Source: Haloprofundus halobius (GTDB taxonomy: Archaea > Halobacteriota > Halobacteria > Halobacteriales > Haloferacaceae). From it: 64,000 nucleotides of DNA. Below, piece after piece: positions 17,944 to 19,566 of the stretch; position 1 is the first letter of the stretch; every line of letters starts with the position of its first letter. A program made the translations under genes and the position numbers. The notes under the pieces are model-generated. The model ran no database searches. It saw nothing but the letters and a program-made list of their open reading frames with translations, and had not been told where the DNA came from. The stretch spans positions 2,418,001 to 2,482,000 of the forward strand of contig NZ_CP083666.1 of NCBI RefSeq assembly GCF_020097835.1, written 5' to 3'.

Positions 17944-18327
17944 ATGAAGCAGTACAAGATGCGACGCGGCGAGACGCTCGAGGAGAACGCACCGGACCTC
18001 AAAGCGACCATCGAGGGGTACTTCGGCCCGGTCACAGGGACCGAGGAACACGACGGCCACGAACTGTACGTCGTCGGCGAACCCGAAAACCCGGTGTTCG
18101 AGCGCATCATCGCCGGCGCGGCGACGTTCAGCGGCAAGAAGGACAAACTCGCCGTCCACTTCGAGGAGCGCGACGCCGCGGAGGTCATCGCGGAGGGCAA
18201 CGCCGACGCCGCACAGGACGCCGTCGACGCGAAGAACAGCTTCCTGCTCGAAGTGACGGGCCGCGACGCGAAGTCCCGCCGCAACTCGATGAAACGCGCC
18301 GTCGAGGACGACACACCCGACGTATAA
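17944..18327 (+). CDS. DUF5611-like conserved haloarchaeal protein
   Basis: A 127-residue protein, MKQYKMRRGETLEE onward, containing an alternating alpha/beta pattern with HELYVVGEPENPVFERIIAGAA and KLAVHFEERDAAEVI. From memory it corresponds to the haloarchaeal DUF5611 family; no function is known to me. The start is set by the TATA-like AAGTAAAC about 27 bases upstream of the ATG; the open frame extends further upstream but without family-like sequence. It converges on the SDR gene at 18660 across the structured intergenic element described at 18341. Confidence 0.82.
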   Translation: MKQYKMRRGETLEENAPDLKATIEGYFGPVTGTEEHDGHELYVVGEPENPVFERIIAGAATFSGKKDKLAVHFEERDAAEVIAEGNADAAQDAVDAKNSFLLEVTGRDAKSRRNSMKRAVEDDTPDV

Positions 18328-18340
18328 CGACCTTTTAACG

Positions 18341-18656
18341 CCCACCTTTTGCGCTGCGGGCTGGCTTCGCCAGCCCTCGGCAAAAGCTGGACCAAAAGCA
18401 TTCGTCGCTCAGTTCGGCGGCGAAGCCGCCTCCCTTCGCTCCTCAGCCCGCTCGCTCCCTACGGTCGCTCGCGGTACAACAGCCGAGCGACGACCGGCGG
18501 CGGAGTGTCGCCGCCAACGGTTCTACCACGAGCGAGGGCGCTAGCCCGAGGGAGTGGGCCGACGACCGAGCAGAACGAAGTGAAGCGAGGGAGGAGTGCT
18601 TTTGGTCCAGCTTTTGCCGAGGGCGCGCGAAGCGCGCCCACAGCGCAAAAGGTGGG
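18341..18656. repeat. Structured intergenic element with 60-base covarying inverted arms
   Basis: Left arm 18341-18400 and right arm 18597-18656 are inverted copies identical at 55 of 60 positions. Each arm contains its own 8-bp hairpin with a three-base loop: 18358-18376 (GGGCTGGC/GCCAGCCC) and 18621-18639 (GGGCGCGC/GCGCGCCC). Four of the five arm differences are two paired changes that keep both local hairpins perfect. The 196-base core holds further short hairpins, such as GGCGG/CCGCC around 18416-18430. The element fills the 332-base gap between convergent genes and its right end lies three bases before the SDR stop codon. It could be a bidirectional terminator, a MITE-like repeat or a structured RNA. 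No target-site duplication is visible. Confidence 0.85.
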
Positions 18657-18659
18657 GTT

Positions 18660-19397
18660 CTAGAGGGTCTCCGGAAGCCACCCGCCGTCGACTTCGACGT
18701 TCTCGCCGCTGATGTAGCCGCTGTCCTCGTCGAGGAAGAACAGCAACGCCTGCGACAGATCCTCGAAGGAGGCCGGGCGACCGCGCGGCAGTTCGTCGGG
18801 GAACTCGTCGGAGTTCTCGGCGACGTACGGCGAGACGGCGTTGACGGTGACCCCGTCGTCCTGCGTGTCGGCCGCGAGCATCCGCGTGAACATCAGCACG
18901 CCGGTTTTAGCGACGAAGTACGGGAAGTTCTTCGGGTAGACCAGCGCCTTCTCGCTGCCCGCGTAACCGACGTTGACGATGCGCCCCCAGCCCTCGTCGC
19001 GCATCGCCGGAAGCGCGCGTTTCGAGCAGAGATACGTCCCGTAGAAGTTCGTCTCGACGACGCGTTGCCACGTGTCGAACTCCATCTCCTCCCAGTGTGT
19101 CGGCGCGAAGTCGCCGACGTTGTTGACGAGTACGTCGACGGAACGGAGCGTCGATTCGACGGTCGAGAAGAGGTCGTCGACGCCCTCGGGGTCGGTCACG
19201 TCGCCCTGCGTCGTCGTCGCCGAGACACCCCGACTCTCGGCCTCCGCGGCGACGTCTTCGGCTTCCTCGGCGCTCGAATGGTAGTGGACGGCGACGTCCG
19301 CGCCGCAGTCGGCCGCCGACAGCAGGAGTTCGCGACCGATACCTTTCGCGCTACCGGTCACGAGAACAGTACGACCCGACAGGTCGGGAGAGAGCAT
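18660..19397 (-). CDS. Short-chain dehydrogenase/reductase (SDR)
   Basis: A 245-residue classical SDR. TGSAKGIGREL near residue 15 binds NAD(P), NNVGD replaces the usual NNAG motif, and YFVAK near residue 156 carries the catalytic Tyr and Lys. The C-terminus EVDGGWLPE fits FabG-like enzymes. The substrate cannot be deduced. A Ser twelve residues before the Tyr could complete the active site, though the usual NISS segment reads NVGYAG. The ATG at 19397 has a TATA-like CTTTTGC 27 bases upstream, supporting it over an upstream start. Its stop abuts the inverted-repeat element. Confidence 0.9.
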   Translation of the reverse strand: MLSPDLSGRTVLVTGSAKGIGRELLLSAADCGADVAVHYHSSAEEAEDVAAEAESRGVSATTTQGDVTDPEGVDDLFSTVESTLRSVDVLVNNVGDFAPTHWEEMEFDTWQRVVETNFYGTYLCSKRALPAMRDEGWGRIVNVGYAGSEKALVYPKNFPYFVAKTGVLMFTRMLAADTQDDGVTVNAVSPYVAENSDEFPDELPRGRPASFEDLSQALLFFLDEDSGYISGENVEVDGGWLPETL

Positions 19398-19566
19398 GCG
19401 GAGACATCGGCCGCTGCGGGCAAAAGTGTACACGCGGCGGGGGAAATATACATGACCCGTGCGAACAGTTGTCATCACAGAGCCACAGCAGAGCAGTACA
19501 AATGTTTATTCGTTATTGAGTAAATTCTTCGTCACGTTTAAGTACTGCACGCGATTACAGAAATCC

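Follow-up and report, generated by a model that had tools for sequence, protein, structure and literature searches.

A putative dispersed 3'-end hairpin cassette of haloarchaea, present in two copies between convergent genes of Haloprofundus halobius

In the window (the whole 64,000-nt stretch of H. halobius DNA analysed here), two convergent genes are separated by a 316-nt segment with long inverted arms, each of which folds a small hairpin of its own. The original prediction took this segment for one element, and the locus thus raises the question of what the unit is, why it lies where it does and what it might do. The parts of the locus are as follows.

17944–18327, forward strand: host gene 1, encoding a DUF5611 protein of 127 aa (Pfam PF18446, E 8e-23), stop codon TAA at 18325–18327
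18327–18340, forward strand: stretch ACGACCTTTTAACG, matching the start of the G001 copy at the DUF5611 gene, with a first T4 tract at 18333–18336
18341–18402, forward strand: head hairpin of the left unit (model R1, 88.1 bits, E 1.7e-19 in the window; fold)
18342–18352 with 18380–18390, forward strand: outer stem of the left head hairpin, with the T4 tract at 18347–18350 and the inner 8-bp hairpin at 18358–18376
18403–18480, forward strand: pyrimidine-rich tail of the left unit, a tail common to copies, with a GGCGGC/GCCGCC hairpin and the end GCTCGCTCCCTACGGTCGCTCGCGGTACAAC (fold)
18520–18594, reverse strand: pyrimidine-rich tail of the right unit (sequence and fold)
18595–18656, reverse strand: head hairpin of the right unit (model R1, 85.6 bits, E 7.1e-19 in the window; fold), starting 3 nt past the stop of host gene 2
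18621–18639, reverse strand: inner 8-bp hairpin of the right head hairpin
18660–19478, reverse strand: host gene 2, encoding a short-chain dehydrogenase/reductase (SDR; Pfam adh_short_C2, E 1e-44), stop codon at 18660–18662

The unit and its build

The structural description given in the original prediction holds. Inverted arms matching at 55 of 60 positions had been reported, and we find the same count over the first 60 positions, with 87% pairing across 75 nt (18341–18415 with 18582–18656); the arm that ends at 18656 does lie three bases from the SDR stop. Each arm carries, as claimed, a perfect 8-bp hairpin with a 3-nt loop, GGGCTGGC-TTC-GCCAGCCC on the left (18358–18376) and, read on its own strand, GGGCGCGC-TTC-GCGCGCCC on the right (18639–18621), and the two differ by the paired changes T-A/G-C and G-C/C-G. 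Around each of these lies a larger outer stem, in which CCA.CTTTTGC is paired with GCAAAAG.TGG. The nearest named relative of the DUF5611 protein is that of Haloprofundus marisrubri (93% identity). A scan of the locus with Rfam 15 gave no match at E ≤ 1, scans at other loci found only tRNA and SRP RNA, and a phage origin of the segment was rejected, the phage search being without match.

Compared with its own genome, the window segment gave 50 matches, mostly to a single arm, each matching place tending to match both query strands as the query arms are inverted copies. Judged from these matches the unit is one arm, and the window holds two copies of a haloarchaeal hairpin cassette, one per convergent gene; the 316 bp proposed as one element are two single-gene 3' units, and the arms are inverted because the DUF5611 (forward) and SDR (reverse) genes converge, each with its own unit. 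One large bidirectional stem-loop, made or kept as a whole, for example as a recombination or replication structure, would be in keeping with the fold of the entire segment (-217.6 kcal/mol against -139.8 +/- 5.5 for shuffles, z = -14; the 62-nt arms folded alone reach -29.6 and -30.4 kcal/mol, z = -3.1 and -3.7). It would also fit the orientation of the segment, which between genomes G000 and G001 aligns at 83.5% over 304 nt in reverse and at 66% forward; between G000 and G003 the best alignment is forward. However, the majority of copies consist of one arm behind one gene, and the two window arms carry different tail modules; the single-arm copies largely refute the stem-loop reading, which we consider very improbable. 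By these alignments, the segment has been flipped between species, as expected from recombination between inverted arms.

Among the genome copies, the cassette starts as CSACCTTTTGCGCTGCGGG-hairpin-CCCTCGGCAAAAGCTSGACCAAAAGCAC and continues into a pyrimidine-rich tail, typically GGCCCGCTCGCTC...GCTCGCGGTACAAC. In order, it comprises a T tract within an outer stem that is capped by a variable inner hairpin, an A-rich linker, and the tail with further hairpins. The T tract is T4 in subtype A and T5–6 in subtype B, which also has the shorter tail. Optional modules are present among copies: a conserved two-hairpin insert, CTCTTCGCGGC..GCCGCGAAGGCTTAGCAGACGC..GCGTCTGCTCTC, occurs at a constant site between AGCT and GGACC (loci L201, L227, L228–L230, L238 and L241) and is possibly a separate module. 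No terminal inverted repeat was seen by eye, the unit starting with CSACCTTTTGC and ending with GCTCGCGGTAC. A second T-tract start (e.g. CGACCTTTTAACG) lies ahead of the cassette at 18327–18340 of the window and at L146, L149, L238 and L035. Each resembles the beginning of an earlier copy that a later one has truncated, and the 18327–18340 stretch before the left unit, with its T tract CGACCTTTTAACG, is probably such a remnant.

Distribution, position and persistence of copies

A covariance model and a search of haloarchaeal genomes had been proposed as a check, and these revealed many other copies with strong covariation, so that the refuting outcome named with the prediction, a lack of further copies and of covariation, did not occur. 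Model R1, which describes subtype A, has 28 matches in its own genome, where the cassette occurs singly and as facing pairs, and 15–29 in four congeneric genomes, a few of the matches being antisense shadows of palindromic copies. Subtype B, searched with its own model R2, adds roughly 8–10 copies to most of the five Haloprofundus genomes. At E ≤ 0.001, relatives of R1 turn up in 127 of the 194 Halobacteria genomes and in 49 of the 65 genera, with E-values that are rough owing to short calibration. Outside the class only short or weak R1 matches appeared, at E about 1e-5 or worse, which we treated as noise; since such chance matches reach E ~1e-5, single matches near E 1e-3 are unsafe. At E ≤ 1e-6 there are 14 copies in H. 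marisrubri, 11 in Halegenticoccus soli, one in Haloferax denitrificans and none in Halorubrum rubrum. These genome statistics are based on search tables, and the copies are mutually related so that counts are not independent. The distribution among genera is patchy and the copy number variable, and the cassette must be dispensable, as it is absent altogether from some genera. A literature search found no description of the family, which is weak evidence of novelty as most subscription papers lay outside its scope. One pattern match on a viral contig (L252) lies inside a 711-aa ORF and was dismissed as chance. In G000, six subtype-A copies fall within about 16 kb of contig C1 (374.9–390.5 kb), two of them at PhoU genes.

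The position of the copies is narrowly defined. A same-strand coding stop lies between -3 and +6 nt from the cassette start in 96 of 143 distinct copies, and between -3 and +18 nt in 103, compared to 326 of 49,200 random positions (0.7%) at equivalent stop distance in the same loci; genes were called by ORF and GC-by-position heuristics, with stops counted for ORFs of coding composition. Subtype B behaves likewise, with 24 of 28 starts a few bases from a stop and one more behind a tRNA-like end. Nearly all sense copies have CCTTTT a few nucleotides past the stop, and ACCTTTT right behind the stop is found at none of the window's other predicted gene ends. Core functions predominate among the host genes (S8e, thermosome, DnaJ, EF-1 beta, Cdc48-like AAA, PhoU, TopA, Asd, MenB, EtfA), and some copies lie antisense behind the gene. 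As an aside, TGA is rare as a host stop: it ends the gene at 10 of 105 copies, compared to 97 of the 253 remaining ORFs at these loci (Fisher p ~1e-8, the copies not being independent).

A feature linked to translation only was considered and rejected, because many of the remaining copies come after RNA genes, directly behind those for tRNA-Leu, tRNA-Ser and tRNA-Ala (L182, L245, L244, L099) and 9 nt behind the archaeal SRP RNA (L249, L251). For the same reason, the common denominator of the sites is, as far as their layout tells, the transcript 3' end and not translation.

Many one-gene clusters have a cassette in three to five of the five Haloprofundus genomes, with inner hairpins that are quite different. 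Two apparent singletons were traced across species. At the DnaJ gene all five carry a cassette; at one geranylgeranyl-reductase-like gene four do, and the fifth retains a remnant. For both genes the position is constant, but the subtype is A in some species and B in others. In the cases traced, sites therefore persist and cassettes are exchanged.

Covariation and possible function

In an alignment of 37 sequences the structure score was 0.313, against 0.099 for shuffled and at most 0.074 for slid versions. With 115 distinct sequences the covariation score was 0.430, compared to 0.108 when shuffled (0/500) and at most 0.046 when slid; 96.6% of cells are paired and 12 of 18 pairs show changes on both sides in this larger alignment, which was fitted to the covariance model and hence leans towards it. 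Outer pairs vary among C-G, G-C and A-U (CCAC..CTGG, CGAC..CTCG, CAAC..GTTG) and a stem pair between G-C and A-U (CTTTTGC..GCAAAAG, CTTTTAC..GTAAAAG); the T-tract pairs are nearly invariant and so uninformative.

The original prediction saw selection on folding in the two paired changes within the window. The strong covariation among copies agrees with this, but the two changes alone are insufficient, as template switching is able to copy one stem arm onto the other, giving compensatory changes without selection (PMC8794818). Template switching is probably at work on these cassettes, since a few copies are now perfect palindromes: in L204 and L237/L014 the internal loop is gone and that part is perfectly palindromic, and L061 has changed likewise, in the opposite direction. 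Such palindromes, together with the documented process, would suit an account based on mutational bias, in which arms recopied during replication keep the hairpins and generate paired changes in the absence of selection. Unchecked arm copying would, however, erase the asymmetric GCTGC/TCG-type internal loop, which is retained in about nine-tenths of the 115 distinct sequences, and the C-C mismatch of the outer stem, retained in 84 of 102 scored; it would also leave the location at transcript ends unexplained. We therefore regard mutational bias as an improbable explanation, and see better evidence of constraint in the retained asymmetric loop and in the constant placement at the ends of transcripts than in the two paired changes.

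On the usual view, archaea form transcript 3' ends with U tracts only and without conserved RNA structure. On balance we favour the view that the segment comprises two copies of a dispersed haloarchaeal 3'-end cassette, mobile now or formerly, which acts as a terminator or 3'-end stabiliser; this is the simplest reading because a T4–T6 tract, hairpins and a pyrimidine-rich tail lie directly behind the gene end. The roles first suggested (bidirectional terminator, structured RNA or mobile repeat) bracket it. RNA polymerase would read on from the gene into the cassette and be halted there by the T tract and the structured, pyrimidine-rich tail (U-tract/aCPSF1-type termination), and the hairpins would shield the new transcript 3' end; facing copies at convergent genes might insulate each gene from the other. 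In Haloferax volcanii, intergenic terminators are T stretches, of which T5C stopped 95% of transcription in vivo (PMC7237163); the archaeal factor aCPSF1 binds U4 tracts and prefers them doubled (PMC8716108).

Several observations speak against a terminator role. Once transcribed, the T tract is base-paired within the hairpin, and a polymerase that stopped at the T tract would leave the hairpin unmade, yet the whole hairpin covaries; as the far side of the hairpin is conserved, the structure must be important for more than its T tract, whether as RNA or as DNA. Some copies are antisense and whole genera lack the cassette. Nor can it be a general terminator, as only some 35–40 of the thousands of genes per genome carry one. 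We infer termination or stabilisation from features of the copies.

Bacterial REP/BIME elements are located in 3' untranslated regions, and integron attC sites are folded hairpins behind a stop codon, with structure conserved more than sequence. The cassette too is a hairpin behind a stop with structure kept more than sequence, but unlike attC sites it forms no arrays and its host genes are core chromosomal; an integron-like system was considered, its support being resemblance alone. The nearest known kind would be REP/BIME, which are short intergenic hairpin units, many per genome, single or in inverted pairs, with traits of mobile elements (PMC2817692). The cassette shares these features but differs in being archaeal, within a few bases of stops or RNA 3' ends, larger, modular and far more diverged with compensatory changes. 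Archaeal U-tract terminators, such as the T5C active in H. volcanii (PMC7237163), likewise have a T tract behind the gene end, but they need no conserved hairpin and form no repeat family, whereas the T tract of the cassette is part of a conserved stem and is found at a small share of genes only. If the reading is correct, a covarying repeat family at stops, tRNA ends and SRP RNA ends, with copies exchanged between sites in related species, would be an archaeal counterpart of REP elements.

Flanking duplications and possible mobility

About a dozen cassettes are flanked by direct repeats of 21–142 nt, mostly of a gene's 3' end. Nine are mRNA-associated copies with no sense gene directly ahead (L185, L197, L205, L250:3298, L225, L161, L188, L226 and L180), with repeats of 34–142 nt; the RNA-gene-associated L179 and L175 have repeats of 28 and 21 nt. 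One repeat ends 0–6 nt before the cassette and the other starts at its far end, mostly being the 3' end of the convergent gene. The repeated ends belong to thiolase, citrate synthase, aminotransferase-like, Elp3-like and diphthine-ligase-like genes, to which the cassettes are mostly antisense, and at L197 the repeat also takes in part of an older cassette tail. In upstream control windows the only similar repeats were those within the long repeat of L197 and at the repeated tRNA ends of L175, and no flanking duplication was seen at sense copies of mRNAs.

Comparison between genomes adds to this picture. The thiolase 3' end is filled in G000 and G001 and empty in G002, G003, G004 and Halegenticoccus, with a duplication of about 50 nt read by eye in G000; one genome from a different family is also filled, and its junction is closely similar. 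The citrate synthase site is filled in G004 and Halegenticoccus, where the duplication matches the gene of the respective genome. Remnants are left there in G000, G001 and G002, whereas G003 has an empty site. The aligned sites show presence and absence with target duplication at both genes; the polarity could be insertion or precise loss between the repeats.

We infer that the cassettes spread by a mobile mechanism with enzymes supplied in trans. More specifically, and tentatively, class-wide, non-autonomous mobile cassettes could insert at gene ends (stop codon, tRNA end or SRP RNA end), duplicating tens to more than 100 bases of the 3' end of the gene, and then be kept or exchanged as terminator or 3'-end stabiliser; we know of no mechanism that a gene-end-targeting mobile element leaving such long duplications would fit. 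It is possible, though we think it unlikely, that the cassette is instead a non-autonomous selfish DNA element at gene 3' ends, whose hairpins are folded DNA serving movement with no host benefit and whose presence behind stops reflects either a targeting rule or the places where copies survive. The long repeats around a subset of copies, the filled and empty thiolase sites, the patchy genera with variable copy number, and the REP/BIME and PATE precedents all agree with this. It sits less well with sense copies that lack duplications and with sites occupied across species in the cases traced, unlike random selfish turnover, nor would the missing terminal inverted repeats (by eye) and the strong sequence divergence between copies be expected. 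Furthermore, the genome has 15 TnpB-type matches, all more than 3 kb from any strong copy; 7 of them are on other contigs, whereas every strong copy sits on the main contig of G000. By this distance, a TnpB-linked IS605 remnant seems unlikely.

The MITEs, PATEs and SMRs of Haloquadratum walsbyi (PMC3119063) resemble the cassette in being short, non-coding, dispersed and palindromic, but none is described there as stop-codon-anchored or covarying. MITEs have terminal inverted repeats (PMC3119063), and as none was seen by eye the cassette does not qualify as one. SMRs have them too and target other mobile elements, mainly PATE/IS605 (PMC3119063), whereas the cassette lies behind core genes. PATEs, which have near-terminal palindromes, share with it palindromes and the lack of terminal inverted repeats, but are related to IS605 ends and make no target duplications (PMC3119063), unlike the cassette subset with 34–142-nt flanking duplications. 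If the preferred reading of a mobile 3'-end cassette holds, the family would tie mobile DNA to how genes end across Halobacteria. The gene-end duplications, of which the literature search found no description, offer a concrete handle on the insertion process.

Two further arrangements were seen. The subtype-B loci L286 (G002) and L305 (G004) apparently have a gene-end duplication of the kind described above, at a gene which in L036, from another family, is followed by a sense copy. At L175 and L213, a tRNA-Leu gene is followed after about 80–110 nt by a second tRNA 3' end (about 24 nt), then by the cassette and a third, degenerate tRNA end.
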